Source: Pseudactinotalea terrae (lineage in GTDB: Bacteria; Actinomycetota; Actinomycetes; Actinomycetales; Beutenbergiaceae). From it: a stretch of DNA of 64,000 nucleotides. How positions within the stretch are numbered: position 1 is the first letter of the stretch; every line of letters starts with the position of its first letter. Both the position numbers and the translations under genes were made by a program. The stretch covers positions 310,001 through 374,000 of the forward strand of contig NZ_WNXZ01000002.1 of NCBI RefSeq assembly GCF_009733845.1, in the 5' to 3' direction. The notes beneath the pieces were generated by a model. It was not told the origin of the DNA. It saw only the letters and a program-made list of their open reading frames with translations, and did not search any database. Of this stretch, positions 28,811 to 63,785 are shown piece after piece.

Positions 28811-29596
28811 GTGAGCACGACGACCGAGACCAGCACCCGCCGTCCCGCGAAGGACGCTGTCCTCGCGGGCGCCGTCGACCTCGCTCGTGAGGTGATCGAG
28901 AGCGAGACCGACCCCGGTCAGGTGGGTGAGCACCTCGGCTTCACGTTGGACGGCGAGCGGTTCGGCACCCACGCATTCGCGTGCCTGATGCCGGGCTACT
29001 CGGGCTGGCACTGGATCGTCACCGTCGCTCGCGCACCCCGCGCCCGCACGGCCACCGTGTGCGAGACCGGGCTGCTCCCTGGCGACGGTGCGCTGCTCGC
29101 GAAGGTGTGGTTGCCCTGGGCCGAGCGCCTCGCACCTGGCGACCTCAGCCCGACCGACCGGCTGCCGTTCGACGGCTCCGACGAGCGTCTCGAGAGCGGC
29201 GTCGTCCCCACGGGCGACCCGGAGATCGACCGCGTCGCGATCCACGAGCTCGGCCTTGACCGCGAGCGCGTGATGACCTCCGCGGCGATCGACGCCGCAG
29301 CCGCCCGCTGGTACGACGGCGTCCACGGCCCGGCCAGCGCCGGCGCCCGTGCGGCTGGCGCGGACTGCGCCACCTGCGGTTTCATCATCCCCCTCGCAGG
29401 GCCCCTCGGCACGCTTTTCGGGGTCTGCGCGAACGAGTGGTCGCCCGATGACGGCAAGGTCGTCAGCTTCGATCACGGCTGCGGTGCGCACTCGGAGACC
29501 GATGTCTCGCGCAGCGGCCACGACTGGGAGCAGGCGGAGCCGCTGATCGACGAGCTCGACATCGAGGTCATCCGCACGGACCCTCCCTCTGAATAG
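28811..29596 (+). CDS. DUF3027 protein
   Basis: A 261-residue protein found in actinobacteria beside the cold-shock gene. A probable metal-binding cluster, CATCGF, then GVCANE and DHGCGAH, lies at about residues 184-230. The middle contains GWHWIVTVARAPRA. The gene starts 1 bp after the cold-shock stop, so the two form an operon. The function is unknown. Confidence 0.82.
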   Translation: MSTTTETSTRRPAKDAVLAGAVDLAREVIESETDPGQVGEHLGFTLDGERFGTHAFACLMPGYSGWHWIVTVARAPRARTATVCETGLLPGDGALLAKVWLPWAERLAPGDLSPTDRLPFDGSDERLESGVVPTGDPEIDRVAIHELGLDRERVMTSAAIDAAAARWYDGVHGPASAGARAAGADCATCGFIIPLAGPLGTLFGVCANEWSPDDGKVVSFDHGCGAHSETDVSRSGHDWEQAEPLIDELDIEVIRTDPPSE

Positions 29597-29658: not shown

Positions 29659-29719
29659 GGAGTTGTCGCGCGCGCGTTACCGTGAAGTGCCATCCCGGCA
29701 CTTACCCCCTGACAACTCC
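29659..29719 (+). promoter_or_regulatory. Nested inverted repeats and -10 box before the GGKDGDEFI repeat gene
   Basis: GGAGTTGTC (29659-29667) is the exact complement of GACAACTCC (29711-29719). Inside it, AAGTGCC (29685-29691) and GGCACTT (29697-29703) form a 7-bp stem with a 5-base loop. A TACCGT -10-like box is at 29678-29683. If transcription starts near 29690, the outer arms are DNA half-sites 52 bp apart, five helical turns. If it starts further upstream, the region would form a two-stem RNA leader. Either reading implies dedicated control. Confidence 0.6.
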
Positions 29720-29743
29720 ACACGGTCCTGAGAAGGAGCCCCC

Positions 29744-30436
29744 ATGTACCCCTCGGTCGTTACTGCCCTGACGACGAAGTACGTCACTTCCGTCACCCGT
29801 CTTGCACCCTCGAACGGCCCCATCCTGCCCGGTGGCAAGGACGGTGACGAGTTCATCCGCGCCGCCCTCGCCGGTGGCAAGGACGGTGACGAGTTCATCC
29901 GCGCCGCCCTCGCCGGTGGCAAGGATGGAGACGAGTTCATCCGTGCCGAGCTGGCCTATGCCGGTGGCAAGGATGGCGATGAGTTTATCGCTGCTGCGTT
30001 CGGTGGCAAGGATGGCGATGAGTTCATCGCTGCTGCGTTCGGTGGCAAGGATGGCGATGAGTTCATCGCTGCTGCGTTCGGTGGCAAGGACGGTGACGAG
30101 TTCATCGCTGCTGCGTTCGGTGGCAAGGATGGTGATGAGTTCATCCGTGCGGCGCTGGGCGGCAAGGACGGTGACGAGTTCATCCGTGCGGCGCTGGGTG
30201 GCAAGGATGGTGACGAGTTCATCGCTGCTGCGTTCGGTGGCAAGGATGGTGACGAGTTCATCGCTGCTGCGTTCGGTGGCAAGGATGGTGACGAGTTCAT
30301 CCGTGCGGCGCTGGGCGGCAAGGATGGTGATGAGTTCATCGCTGCTGCGTTCGGTGGCAAGGATGGTGACGAGTTCATCCGTGGCGAGCTGGCGTTCGCC
30401 GGCGGCGGCAAGGATGGCGACGAGTTCATCTGCTGA
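29744..30436 (+). CDS. Tandem-repeat protein with 15 copies of GGKDGDEFI (unknown family)
   Basis: A 230-residue protein I do not recognise. AGAAGGAG (29731-29738) is a strong ribosome-binding site 5 bases from the ATG. A 29-residue leader without a Sec/Tat signal or membrane segment (MYPSVVTALTTKYVTSVTRL, then APSNGPILP) is followed by 15 units, mostly 13 residues: GGKDGDEFI plus AAAF (7 copies), RAAL(A) (5), RAELAYA or RGELAFAG (one each), and a final GGKDGDEFI-Cys. That terminal Cys is the only Cys. Each unit has a net charge of -1 or -2. DGDEFIRAAL could form a capped short helix broken by GG. KDGDEFI resembles the EF-hand loop core KDGDGFI but lacks its first and last acidic ligands. The array could be a modular peptide precursor, a metal- or mineral-binding protein, or a helical solenoid. 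No modifying enzyme or protease lies beside it. Confidence 0.85.
   Translation: MYPSVVTALTTKYVTSVTRLAPSNGPILPGGKDGDEFIRAALAGGKDGDEFIRAALAGGKDGDEFIRAELAYAGGKDGDEFIAAAFGGKDGDEFIAAAFGGKDGDEFIAAAFGGKDGDEFIAAAFGGKDGDEFIRAALGGKDGDEFIRAALGGKDGDEFIAAAFGGKDGDEFIAAAFGGKDGDEFIRAALGGKDGDEFIAAAFGGKDGDEFIRGELAFAGGGKDGDEFIC
29831..30433 (+). repeat. 39-bp tandem coding repeat array
   Basis: Fifteen units, mostly 39 bp, encode the GGKDGDEFI protein. The first three units use GC-rich codons (GCC, CTC, GAC). Units from about 29962 on use GCT, GCG and GAT with near-identical DNA. That pattern fits later expansion and homogenisation by slippage or unequal recombination. Because 39 is divisible by three, the opposite strand is also open; I treat that as an artefact. 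Confidence 0.93.
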
Positions 30437-30444
30437 TCCGCACG

Positions 30445-30464
30445 GGCACGCCGTCAGGCGTGCC
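30445..30464 (+). terminator. Hairpin closing the repeat-protein transcription unit
   Basis: GGCACGCC (30445-30452) pairs perfectly with GGCGTGCC (30457-30464) around GTCA, 8 bases after the stop codon. There is no T-run, as is common in high-GC genomes. It separates the repeat gene from the MFS gene, so the repeat gene is probably monocistronic. Confidence 0.68.
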
Positions 30465-30481: not shown

Positions 30482-31684
30482 GTGACTGACGAACGCCCGG
30501 GCCCGACGCCGTCATGGACGGCGTTGATCCCGGGCGTCTACCTGCCGTCCCTCGTCTTCGAGATCGGGATCGGCGCGATGATGCCGGTCCTGGCCGTGAG
30601 CGCAGGACAGCTCGGCGCCGATCTGGCGACCGCCGGCGTCATCACGGCGCTGCTCCCGATCGGGCGGATACTCGCCGACCTGCCGGCGGGAGCCGTGGCC
30701 GCACGCCTCGGCGACCGGGCCGCGATGATCATCGCCTCGGCCGTCGCGGTCGTCGGCATGGCGCTGCTCGCGCTCGCGCCCCATCTGCTGGTGCTGGGGC
30801 TCGGGGCACTGCTGCTCGGCGCCACCGAGGCGGTGTACGGGCTGGCCAGGCAGTCGTACCTGACCGAGTCGGTGCCGGTGCTGAGGCGAGCACGCGCGCT
30901 CTCGACGCTCGGCGGCGTCGCCAGGATCGGCCTGTTCATCGGTCCGTTCGCCGGGGCGGCGATCGCCCACGTCACCGATCGGACCGCGTCGATCTACTGG
31001 CTCGGCGTCGCGACGAGCATCCTCGCGGCCGTCGTCGTCGCGGTCGCGACCGACCCGGACAGGTCGCGCAAGGACCGCCCCAGACCGACCAGGCTGCTCG
31101 ACGTCGTCAGGGCGCATCGCCGGGTCCTCAGCACCCTGGGAGTGGCCGTGCTGCTCGTCGGTGCGATGCGCGGCGCGCGCATGACGGTGATCCCGTTGTG
31201 GGCCGAGCACCTCGAGCTCGGTGCCGCGACGACGAGCCTCGTGTTCGGTATCGCGGGCGGTATCGACATGCTGCTCTTCTACCCGGCCGGCAAGGTCATG
31301 GACCTCAAGGGCCGCCGCTGGGTCGCGATCCCCTCGATGCTGATCATGGGCGTGGCGATGGTGCTGATACCGCTCACCGGCACGGTGGGCGGCCTCGCCG
31401 CCGCGGCGATGCTGCTCGGCTTCGGCAACGGCATCGGGTCCGGCGTCATCATGACGCTCGGTGCTGACACGGCGCCGCCCGGGGAGCGCGCTCAGTTCCT
31501 CGGCGCCTGGCGCCTGCTCGCCGACTCCGGCAACGCAGGCGGCCCGCTGATCGTCTCCGCCGGCGCCGCGCTCGGGTCCCTCGCCCTCGGTATCACCGCG
31601 ATGGGTCCCATCGCCGCCGCCACCGCCGCTGCACTCGGACGCTGGGTGCCGGGGCGGCCGGCTCCGCCGCCGGAGCGGACATGA
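30482..31684 (+). CDS. MFS transporter
   Basis: A 400-residue transporter with about 12 membrane segments. The loop-2 motif appears as GAVAARLGDRAAMI and a second copy as GKVMDLKGRRWV. Start GTG at 30482; no clear ribosome-binding site. Its stop overlaps the acVLRF1 start (ATGA). As I recall, this MFS gene keeps the same neighbours in other actinobacteria (Rv0876c type), so it need not export products of the upstream repeat gene. The substrate is unknown. Confidence 0.86.
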   Translation: MTDERPGPTPSWTALIPGVYLPSLVFEIGIGAMMPVLAVSAGQLGADLATAGVITALLPIGRILADLPAGAVAARLGDRAAMIIASAVAVVGMALLALAPHLLVLGLGALLLGATEAVYGLARQSYLTESVPVLRRARALSTLGGVARIGLFIGPFAGAAIAHVTDRTASIYWLGVATSILAAVVVAVATDPDRSRKDRPRPTRLLDVVRAHRRVLSTLGVAVLLVGAMRGARMTVIPLWAEHLELGAATTSLVFGIAGGIDMLLFYPAGKVMDLKGRRWVAIPSMLIMGVAMVLIPLTGTVGGLAAAAMLLGFGNGIGSGVIMTLGADTAPPGERAQFLGAWRLLADSGNAGGPLIVSAGAALGSLALGITAMGPIAAATAAALGRWVPGRPAPPPERT

Positions 31685-49661: not shown

Positions 49662-49734
49662 GCCCCCGTAGCTCAGGGGATAGAGCAACCGCCTCCTAAG
49701 CGGTAGGTCGCGCGTTCGAATCGCGCCGGGGGCA
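49662..49734 (+). tRNA. tRNA-Arg (anticodon CCT)
   Basis: A 73-base cloverleaf. Acceptor GCCCCCG (49662-49668) pairs with CGGGGGC (49727-49733), followed by discriminator A. The D-arm is GTAGCTCAGGGGATAGAGC. The anticodon stem-loop is ACCGC-CTCCTAA-GCGGT, giving anticodon CCT, which reads AGG. The T-arm is GCGCGTTCGAATCGCGC. CCA is not encoded. Three repeats of its 3' end follow. Confidence 0.96.
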
Positions 49735-49933
49735 CAAGGCGCTTGCGCCGCTGGCCCCCGCGCGATTCGGGAGGAGCTGGCGACGGAGTGCGCCGGGGGC
49801 ACCAAGGCGCTTGCGCCGCTGGCCCCCGCGCGATTCGGGAGGAGCTGGCGACGGAGTGCGCCGGGGGCACAAGGCGCTTGCGCAGCCGTGACCCGGCGTG
49901 ATTCGGGAGGAGCTGGCGACGGAGTGCGCCGGC
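49724..49933 (+). repeat. 67-68 bp tandem repeat carrying the tRNA-Arg 3' end
   Basis: Unit starts are at 49724, 49791, 49859 and a stub at 49927. Each unit starts CGCCGGGGGCAC, the last bases of the tRNA plus one or two, then a nested hairpin with GGCGCTTGCGCC inside GGGGGC/GCCCCC, then GATTCGGGAGGAGC and TGGCGACGGAGTG. The third unit is diverged. The GCGCGATTCG part mimics the T-arm. Confidence 0.93.
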
Positions 49934-61960: not shown

Positions 61961-62033
61961 GGGGCTATGGCGCAGTTGGTAGCGCGTCTCGTTCGCAATG
62001 AGAAGGTCGGGGGTTCGAATCCCCCTAGCTCCA
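61961..62033 (+). tRNA. tRNA-Ala (anticodon CGC)
   Basis: A 73-base cloverleaf with acceptor GGGGCTA (61961-61967) and TAGCTCC (62026-62032), discriminator A. Anticodon loop TTCGCAA gives CGC, which reads GCG. The T-arm is GGGGG-TTCGAAT-CCCCC. CCA is not encoded. TATTCT at 61943-61948 is the -10 box. A duplicated tail follows. Confidence 0.96.
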
Positions 62034-62038
62034 CAACA

Positions 62039-62077
62039 CAGAAGGACCAGGGCACGATTTTCGCCCTGGTCCTTCTG
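62039..62077 (+). terminator. tRNA-Ala terminator (first copy)
   Basis: CAGAAGGACCAGGGC (62039-62053) pairs perfectly with 62063-62077 around the loop ACGATTTTC, a 15-bp stem. It lies 6 bases after the tRNA. Confidence 0.88.
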
Positions 62078-62152
62078 CGTTGAGAAGGCCAGTGATTCGA
62101 GGAGTCCGCCGCAGCGGAGCGAGGACGGCGGGGTCCCCCTAGCTCCACAACA

Positions 62153-62191
62153 CAGAAGGACCAGGGCACGATTTTCGCCCTGGTCCTTCTG
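62153..62191 (+). terminator. Second copy of the tRNA-Ala terminator
   Basis: The same 15-bp hairpin as at 62039-62077, shifted by exactly 114 bp through the tandem duplication. Confidence 0.85.
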
Positions 62192-62252
62192 CGTTGAGAA
62201 GGCCAGTGATTCGAGGAGTCCGCCGCAGCGGAGCGAGGACGGCGGGGTCTCC

Positions 62253-63785
62253 CTAGCTCAACCGAGCGTGGGACTCGCGACGGAGGAACACTCGGTCGAG
62301 GTACGCGCGGACCGCACTGAGGTCGTTCCGAGGCGCCCGCGCTGCGACGTACCCGTCGGGCCGGACGACGACCACGGCGGGTCGCGGCAGTCCGTACGCA
62401 CGCGCTGCCGGTGACCCGGCAGGGAGGGGCACGACATGGACGTGCCGGTCGTGGTCTCCGAGTGCGGAGCGGATCTCGTCGTCGGGCACCGCCACGCTGA
62501 ACAGGGTGTGTGCGGTGGGATGGAGGAGCTCGTGCACTCGCGTGCCGGTGCTGGCCGGCGTGTCCGGCGCCCGGTCGCCTACAGCTGCCCGGCCTGCCGG
62601 CGCCGAGCCCCGGTGGTCGTGGTAGGAGACGTCGAGCTGGGAGATCGCGCGAGTGAGCTTGACCTGCACGGGGCGGCGGGCGAGCAGCAACGGTGCGACG
62701 TGACGGCGCGCCGCTGTGACGAGCGGGTGCTTCACCAGCGTCAAGCGGGTCACCCGACGTGTGGCCCTCACCAGTCGTTCGGCGACGGGGGCACGTTCGG
62801 AGGCATAGGTGTCCAGCAGCCCGGGATCGGCGGTCCCGGTGATGACCTCGGCCAGCTTCCAGCCCAGGTTGAACGCGTCCTGGATGCCGGTGTTCATGCC
62901 CTGGGCGCCGATGACTGAGTGGATGTGTGCGGCGTCCCCGGCGAGGAACACCCGGCCCAGGCGGTGCGAGGCGGCTCGCCGCTGATTGATCCGGAAGAGC
63001 CCGGCCTGTCGCACCTCCTCGATGACGGCGCTGCCCGGGACGGAGTCGCTGATCGACTGCTGCAGCTCTGCGTGCGTGATGCTCCGGTCCTGGCGCCCGG
63101 CGGCGTGCGGTTGGGCGATGGCGACCCGGTGCCAGCCGCCGAGCATCGGGAAGAAGGCGGCGAACCGGCCACGGTTGAGGAACGCGAAGAACTCCTCGGC
63201 AGGGCGGTCCCAGCCGATCCGCAGGTCCGCCACCGCGAAGTTCTCCTCGAAGGCAGAGCCCATGAACTCGACGTCGAGCGCGCGCCGGACCGTGCTGTGC
63301 GCGCCGTCGGCGCCGATGACCCAGTCGAGTATGGCCGTCTCGGCGCTTCCATCAGCACGGGTGAGGACGGCGGTGACGCCATCGGGGGACTGGGTGATGG
63401 AGTCGAGCGCAACGCGCCTCTCGATCCTCACACCCAGGTCGGCCAGCCTGGCCGCGAGGATGGCCTCGGTGTCGTTCTGCGGGATCATGAGCAGATAGGG
63501 GTAGCGCGTCTGAAGACTGTGGAAGTCGGCCCGCAGGATGCGTCGGCCCTCGCTGTAGACGTTGAAACGCTGCGCCCGCAGCCCGTTGTCGAGCAGGGCG
63601 GTGGTGATTCCGTGCCGCTCGTAGAGCTCGAGGGTCCGCGCCTGCATCCCCAGCGCGCGGGTATCGGTGCTGGCAGCCGCAGCCTTGTCGATCACCCTCA
63701 CCGAGATGCCACGGCGAGCGAGCTCCACCGCCAGCGTCAGACCGGTCGGGCCGGCCCCGACGACGAGGACCGTCGCGGCGCTCAT
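62253..63785 (-). CDS. FAD-dependent aromatic-ring monooxygenase
   Basis: A 510-residue class A flavoprotein hydroxylase. The FAD-binding motif VLVVGAGPTGLTLAVELA is at residues 6-23. The DG motif is VIGADGAHSTVRRALD and the GD motif is GRVFLAGDAAHIHSVIGAQG. A C-terminal thioredoxin-like domain (about 400-510) is typical of phenol/pentachlorophenol-type hydroxylases. It probably hydroxylates an aromatic compound using NAD(P)H and O2. It overlaps the SRPBCC gene upstream (ATGA). Confidence 0.88.
   Translation of the reverse strand: MSAATVLVVGAGPTGLTLAVELARRGISVRVIDKAAAASTDTRALGMQARTLELYERHGITTALLDNGLRAQRFNVYSEGRRILRADFHSLQTRYPYLLMIPQNDTEAILAARLADLGVRIERRVALDSITQSPDGVTAVLTRADGSAETAILDWVIGADGAHSTVRRALDVEFMGSAFEENFAVADLRIGWDRPAEEFFAFLNRGRFAAFFPMLGGWHRVAIAQPHAAGRQDRSITHAELQQSISDSVPGSAVIEEVRQAGLFRINQRRAASHRLGRVFLAGDAAHIHSVIGAQGMNTGIQDAFNLGWKLAEVITGTADPGLLDTYASERAPVAERLVRATRRVTRLTLVKHPLVTAARRHVAPLLLARRPVQVKLTRAISQLDVSYHDHRGSAPAGRAAVGDRAPDTPASTGTRVHELLHPTAHTLFSVAVPDDEIRSALGDHDRHVHVVPLPAGSPAARAYGLPRPAVVVVRPDGYVAARAPRNDLSAVRAYLDRVFLRRESHARLS

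Follow-up and report, generated by a model that had tools for sequence, protein, structure and literature searches.

What is the role of a bacterial protein made almost entirely of one nonapeptide, copied without a single change? In the window analysed here, a 64,000-nucleotide stretch of the Pseudactinotalea terrae genome, an open reading frame that begins with an ATG closely preceded by an in-frame stop encodes 15 copies of GGKDGDEFI with zero amino-acid variation (Table 1). A DUF3027 gene and an MFS transporter gene border it, and we call the position between them the slot. An earlier note, made from the DNA alone, had described 15 invariant nine-residue units behind a 29-residue leader, a strong ribosome-binding site and a single Cys at the end, all of which are present as described; the terminal Cys is the only one in the protein. 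Its three tail types come close to the 14 linkers seen (AAAF seven times, RAAL three times, RAALA twice, RAELAYA and RGELAFAG once each). The terminator it had listed is not borne out: a strong GC hairpin follows the stop codon but has no T-run, and a consensus scan returned 0 terminators and no plus-strand promoter.

Table 1. Coordinates of the slot gene, its surroundings and the prophage micro-ORFs; positions are those of the window unless a locus is named.
Feature	Position	Strand	Basis or remark
DUF3027 protein, upstream border of the slot	28811..29596	+	PF11228, E 4.6e-78
5′ UTR hairpin AAGTGCC-ATCCC-GGCACTT	29685..29703	+	folding of 85-nt UTR plus ATG
Shine-Dalgarno AAGGAG	29733..29738	+	sequence as read
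CDS of the tandem-unit protein, 230 aa	29744..30436	+	stop codon 30434-30436; orthologues at the equivalent position in both other Pseudactinotalea genomes
Leader, 29 residues, not Sec-like	29744..29830	+	best 12-residue mean hydropathy 0.78; net charge before that stretch 0
15 x GGKDGDEFI with linkers AAAF/RAAL/RAALA/RAELAYA/RGELAFAG	29831..30430	+	sequence, coding-pattern scan
Terminal Cys codon, not conserved	30431..30433	+	Gly and Leu in two sister species
GC-rich hairpin 3′ of the stop, without T-run	30445..30464	+	folding, terminator consensus scan
MFS transporter, downstream border of the slot	30482..31684	+	PF07690, E 4e-46
Micro-ORF MFGFFFGLFGWGDELI	L106:2427-2477		strong Shine-Dalgarno upstream
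Micro-ORF MFRFFFGFLGWGDELI	L107:2505-2555		strong Shine-Dalgarno upstream

Although other frames are also open across the array, the 27-nt core has five variable columns and every one is a third codon position, so that the frame is real. The coding pattern for GKDGDEFI matches 15 places in the 4.76-Mb genome, all within this ORF (control 0). Third-position GC over 29744-30433 is 0.71 vs. 0.89-0.92 in three measured neighbour genes. Elsewhere in the window, two direct repeats begin at the 3′ ends of tRNA genes: 68 nt × 3.1 (94% matches) at tRNA-Arg (49723-49932) and 114 nt × 2.1 (99%) at tRNA-Ala (62020-62259).

Both sister species largely retain the inner 5′ UTR hairpin, and its loop reads the same in all three Pseudactinotalea genomes; folding gave z = –3.4 for the window and –2.1 and –0.3 for the sisters. 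Across 14 members of the family described below, z ranges from –3.4 to 0.7 and is mostly unremarkable, and we therefore make no claim for 5′ UTR hairpins of slot genes. Outer pairing of GGAGTTGTC with GACAACTCC (29659-29719) encloses the inner hairpin of the window. Upstream of two other slot genes (L035 and L036) a CTCTCGG...CCGAGAG pair, found by eye, brackets the AAGGAG ribosome-binding site (z –1.0 and 0.1), as if a stem could hide it. The single Rfam match up to E = 1 was to a microRNA model, at 19.4 bits vs. a gathering score of 93, and was rejected.

All three Pseudactinotalea genomes examined (NCBI taxonomy places the genus in Cellulomonadaceae) carry the gene between DUF3027 and MFS. 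The P. suaedae orthologue has 16 copies of GGKDGDEFI and ends in Gly; that of the third species has 22 units (20 GPKDGSEFI, one GPKEGSEFI and one GPKDGTEFI), ends in Leu and carries Cys in four internal linkers. Each protein ends one residue past the core, and the lone terminal Cys is peculiar to the window species. The GG pairs, which the earlier note had suggested as processing sites, are replaced by GP in all 22 units of the third species and by GW in the GWGDELI relatives, which leaves that role unsupported. Synonymous differences per 27-nt core average 1.9-3.0 within a genome; between genomes they average 2.4 for the first two species and 5.0-5.2 for the third species against either of these. 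Measured against the third species, the copies move as a set, which is the pattern of concerted evolution; between the two closest species it is not visible. Of the selection or ongoing homogenisation that the earlier note proposed behind the perfect conservation, selection shows as almost purely synonymous variation, and homogenisation can be seen against the third species, less so between the closest pair.

Curated families in Pfam, NCBIfam and PHROGs gave no domain-length match over cut-off, and NCBIfam gave nothing over cut-off at all, in line, as far as these collections were searched, with the statement that no family is known; homologues do exist in related genomes. Whole-protein Pfam scores over cut-off were obtained for SH3_2 (PF07653; window protein 36.4 bits, P. 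suaedae 29, cut-off 21.8) and, in P. suaedae, for PF23082 (27.4 vs. 27) and PF09509 (25.4 vs. 25). In none of these does an individual stretch pass (the best SH3_2 stretch covers 17 residues), and we read the totals as sums of weak repeats; SH3_2 was rejected. The best PHROGs match has E = 0.00017, with 0 stretches passing. The AlphaFold2 model of the window protein has a mean pLDDT of 39.5 and a pTM of 0.19 from an alignment of only two sequences; as a prediction it shows no fold and is equally no proof of disorder, and it lends nothing to the suggestion of a helical solenoid. AlphaRep and HEAT-like repeats are helical units of ~31 residues. Eighteen phmmer matches to solved structures of this type (best 1.5e-10) were judged to be composition, because the one alignment shown consists of KDGDE-type composition over several weak domains, the unit is mostly 13 residues long and pLDDT is 39.5. 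A literature search on the core motifs and on peptides of Pseudactinotalea found nothing.

Similarity searches reached little beyond the genus. The window protein matched 25 of 99 genomes of relatives at E up to 1, the best matches outside the genus (2.6e-8 and 5.6e-8) having 23-24% identity and internal stops, and a scan of loci L001-L051 for [KR][DEN]G.[ED]F hit Pseudactinotalea loci only; on reading, one matched locus (L004) is an unrelated repeat. A search of the class matched 4 of 394 genomes at 1e-5, namely its own and three unrelated repeats. Since a genome carrying a family member (G005) gave no match there, this search leaves room for distant relatives elsewhere. A GWGDELI query of 296 genomes, a set without a positive control, matched none. 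Neither the window protein nor one GWGDELI array had a match among phages and plasmids; in a viral match (L122) a single KDGDEFIA lies inside an unrelated stretch. Unrelated tandem-repeat frames, GAAFLAAAFLRRF, were seen at L118 and L119 in two small-genome members of the class.

Synteny was more productive. DUF3027 is present in 56 of the 59 genomes searched, and the DNA 3′ of it was read in 22 of the 24 family genomes (for four of these, the reading covered ORFs that exceed 150 aa or carry a core-like motif). A slot gene with related architecture is borne by 15 of the 24, the three Pseudactinotalea and 12 others. GWGDELI arrays with RN/RA linkers form the g4 group (six copies in G012, G015 and G005, eight in G018), and GWGDELI with 8-10-residue linkers occurs in G020, G022 and G023 (four, five and four copies). 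GGDEELI is present four times in G008 and three times in G021, and single-copy members have GGDEEVI (G013) or GADEEVI (G016, G019). Overall the syntenic cores follow G..GDE[LF]I (the D being replaced by S in one species) or are GDEE[LV]I-like, in 1 to 22 copies. G023, which has no DUF3027 match, was placed from the MFS side, and its contig stops inside the slot gene. No family gene was seen in G004, G006, G007, G009, G010, G011, G014 or G017, and G003 has no DUF3027 match; core motif patterns matched nothing in these nine non-bearers.

The MFS gene lies directly 3′ of the slot gene in 12 of 15 bearers and adjoins DUF3027 in the non-bearer G004; within the ~1.4 kb fetched 3′ of the slot gene, G012, G015 and G018 have no MFS gene. 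An acVLRF1 release-factor-like gene comes next after DUF3027, slot gene and MFS in the window, and helicase-like, luciferase-like, FAD-binding and MarR proteins complete the Pfam-recognised neighbours. At >120 bits, what three neighbourhoods outside the genus have in common with the window is limited to the helicase-like, cold-shock-like, DUF3027 and MFS genes, plus acVLRF1 in two of the three. Neither the window Pfam search nor these three neighbourhoods revealed a recognisable receptor, protease or modifying enzyme beside the slot gene, and no TPR-type receptor gene is among the Pfam-searched neighbours of the window gene.

A g4 query finds no true match within Pseudactinotalea, overall similarity being too low for direct scoring. 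The Pseudactinotalea gene is nevertheless inferred to be a homologue of the other slot genes on three grounds: the slot is identical, the layout is tandem, and a GDE[FL]IRA string is common to two of three Pseudactinotalea arrays and the g4 arrays. A 20-row DUF3027 tree places the 14 bearers that it includes in one group with G004 (89/87), which fits a single origin followed by loss in G004, or an origin just after the split from G004. The GWGDELI coding pattern occurs in 7 of 396 order genomes, all of this family (41 places, control 0), a GGDEELI query of 297 genomes of the order hit only two, each a family bearer, and KDG.EFI in the 24 family genomes matches solely the three Pseudactinotalea arrays.

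Minimum spanning trees of core copies in 12 multi-copy arrays, some from near relatives and thus not independent of each other, contain 99 synonymous and three non-synonymous changes, all three in G002. For the window array the count is nine to zero (a simple neutral model with kappa 2 gives a P of about 2e-6; kappa 1-5 was run for three arrays). Copies were counted by motif and every inter-copy stretch was read as linker; degenerate copies were none seen. The array period ranges from 9 to 18 residues across members and linkers differ by clade in both sequence and length; GWGDELI itself is letter-perfect in two clades with different linkers, RN/RA (period 9) vs. 8-10 residues. This shows the core to be the unit under selection and the linkers to be free. 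With the core constant while linkers and period vary, and no fold accounting for the conservation, the core appears to act as an independent short unit.

The termini of the proteins divide the family. By hydropathy and charge, the N-termini of all 11 complete non-Pseudactinotalea members are Sec-like (best 12-residue hydropathy 2.34-2.86; charge +3 to +5), and the leaders of the three Pseudactinotalea proteins are not (0.78-1.50; 0 to +1). Without exception, the 12 non-Pseudactinotalea proteins have the isoleucine of the core as their last residue. No common protease site was found in the linkers.

Away from the slot, GWGDELI occurs in two 16-codon ORFs, in G005 and G018, each ending in the motif and thereby in the core of its own host's array. 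The micro-proteins follow MF[GR]FFFG[LF][FL]GWGDELI, nine mostly hydrophobic residues plus the core. The ORF at L106 is flanked by excisionase-like and HNH genes, and the locus also has a repressor match; the stretch is 100% identical over 3290 bp to an IMG/VR provirus (L125) with matches to terminase, portal, major head, tape-measure and integrase. The ORF at L107 lies 3′ of holin and minor-tail genes and 5′ of tRNA-Thr. By blastn at E 1e-3, the two 5-kb prophage stretches resemble each other in a single 68-bp block (91%), made up of ribosome-binding site and ORF. The ORFs differ at three positions, all residue-changing and all in the hydrophobic half; GWGDELI has none.

Across the 24 family genomes, an 18-base pattern coding for GDE[LF]I-stop has nine matches, seven GWGDELI array ends and the two micro-ORFs, and one for DEE[LV]I-stop has five, all array ends (control 0 for each). 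Neither DEE[LV]I-stop nor KDG.EFI yielded a prophage copy in these genomes, and prophage copies were seen with a single core type, in two of the four g4 genomes of one genus. Among 54 viral stretches with MF.FFFG starts, the only core-ended one is L125, the provirus corresponding to L106. A scan for short ORFs with a GDE[LF]I end matched three stretches, in two of which TGG stands in place of the stop. With the micro-protein as query, tblastn against phages reached, at E = 1, four Listeria phage records that lack annotation, and plasmids gave no match; blastn with the 81-bp micro-ORF region returned 40 phage records, none covering 80% (best 42% among the 10 listed of these 40), and these were judged chance.

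Taken together, core conservation, free linkers, the C-terminus at the core end, single-copy members and the leaderless phage version favour a multi-copy precursor that releases a short peptide to be recognised by its free C-terminus, a reading to which we give a probability of just under one half (about 0.48). Of the three ideas for the protein in the earlier note, a repeat-type peptide precursor is the best supported, through the Sec-like N-termini at the same locus in relatives, purifying selection on the core, free linkers and the core-end C-terminus. Under this reading the precursor would exit the cell, ordinary extracellular proteases would cleave inside the linkers, and the released peptides, their ...DE[LF]I C-termini free, would be bound by a partner, comparable to the pheromones that come from tandem Phr propeptides. 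As for the micro-proteins of the prophages, they would be leaderless single-copy versions made intracellularly, and in Pseudactinotalea the same kind of repeat would persist under an altered leader. Each step beyond the core as selected unit is inferred. Several observations weigh against the peptide precursor: the Pseudactinotalea proteins, the finding itself, have no Sec-like signal in any of three cases and C-termini one residue beyond the core, the linkers offer no common protease site, the neighbourhood has no recognised partner gene, and the phage copies come from two loci, in two of four genomes of one genus. Calculated [M+H]+ values are 937.4261 for GGKDGDEFI, 880.4047 for GKDGDEFI, 789.3777 for GWGDELI, 789.3625 for GGGDEELI and 1348.6855 for the uncut unit GGKDGDEFIRAAL.

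Among the alternatives, the protein may stay uncut and act multivalently at the surface or outside the cell, with short binding motifs strung along a flexible chain so that avidity does the work and copy number tunes the strength. The absence of a confident fold in the two-sequence AlphaFold2 model, the range of 1-22 copies on variable linkers, which suits beads on a string, and an acidic core able to bind cations or a surface all fit. We nevertheless hold it unlikely: single-copy members (G013, G016, G019) carry the core at the extreme C-terminus, and avidity leaves the micro-proteins unexplained. Another idea is a C-terminal recognition tag, for instance a PDZ ligand of a membrane protease, active only at a free C-terminus and with spare or homogenised internal copies; PDZ binding of the core is presumed here from general motif classes. 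Every one of the 12 non-Pseudactinotalea proteins and both micro-ORFs stop at the isoleucine, in favour of a tag, but internal copies too vary almost solely synonymously and the Pseudactinotalea proteins add Cys, Gly or Leu after the core, which makes the tag quite improbable.

RTX proteins are built of contiguous GGxGxDxUx nonapeptides. The slot proteins resemble them in their short Gly/Asp-rich tandem units, and in the g4 arrays RN and RA alternate at a period of exactly 9 residues; one GWGDELI member scores 25.1 bits (E 8.9e-6) against the calcium-binding repeat NF046115 and 16.5 bits (E 0.0018) against the RTX model NF033943. Those scores are far below the cut-offs of 625 and 1000, Pfam RTX matches are none, other members have periods of 10-18 residues, and single-copy members are unable to form a roll. 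The key aspartate is also not kept throughout, being absent from GPKDGSEFI and Glu in GWGDELI. A small calcium-binding RTX-like protein is accordingly the least probable of the explanations, and the metal-binding polymer of the earlier note fares poorly, as GPKDGSEFI has one acidic residue fewer and RTX and EF-hand families are not reached over cut-off. Scarcely more probable is an enzymatically modified RiPP of YcaO or similar type. The thiovarsolin work (PMC6511847) describes an actinobacterial repeating-core precursor, VarA, with forms from non-repeating to five repeats and an MFS gene in the cluster, comparable to the one-to-many copies and adjacent MFS gene here, and one slot member has a sub-threshold match to NF033878 (13.3 bits, E 0.075, cut-off 35). 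VarA, however, requires a cluster-encoded YcaO/TfuA, and beside the slot no modifying enzyme was recognised. YcaO (PF02624) is present in only 3 of 24 family genomes (G008, G013 and G021, all bearers) and in none of the three Pseudactinotalea, for which reason a YcaO-type RiPP was rejected as a general explanation.

For the favoured peptide precursor, the closest parallels are signalling systems. Secreted multi-copy propeptide signalling is best known from Bacillota, and in the ComS layout a very short leaderless peptide carries its signal at the C-terminus. Two Rap-Phr (RRNPPA) systems (PMC11343458) come from phages and have propeptides with duplicated pheromones; these are small secreted precursors in which a short peptide is repeated, as it is in most slot proteins, whose N-termini outside Pseudactinotalea are Sec-like. 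The difference is that Phr belongs to Bacillota and its receptor gene adjoins the propeptide gene (PMC10075063), whereas the slot family is actinobacterial, has up to 22 copies and shows no recognised receptor. The MF..FFG...GWGDELI layout of the micro-ORFs resembles ComS of Streptococcus mutans, whose signal XIP is the heptapeptide GLDWWSL (PMC6211226), except that the micro-ORF is prophage-borne and has no ComR-like receptor identified; no sequence homology is claimed. Membership in the Rap-Phr, ComS/XIP or VarA families is not claimed, given the lack of an adjacent receptor and of YcaO in Pseudactinotalea.

A Streptococcus prophage protein, Prx, interferes with the peptide-signal receptor ComR (PMC6224593), and the prophages here are possibly copying a host peptide signal. 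More speculatively, and with clearly more doubt than the precursor reading carries, GWGDELI, GGDEELI, GKDGDEFI and GPKDGSEFI could be lineage-specific forms of an undescribed actinobacterial peptide signal, with the 16-residue prophage copy sharing or subverting the host channel. Should the core instead be a tag or a polymer unit, the slot genes would still be an undescribed family with a unit under very strong selection. If the signal is real, it would place the same signalling logic in Actinomycetota, with a candidate active peptide marked out by selection and a phage-borne copy, and would provide a defined, cheaply synthesised molecule with which to find the receptor and to approach phage-host crosstalk.
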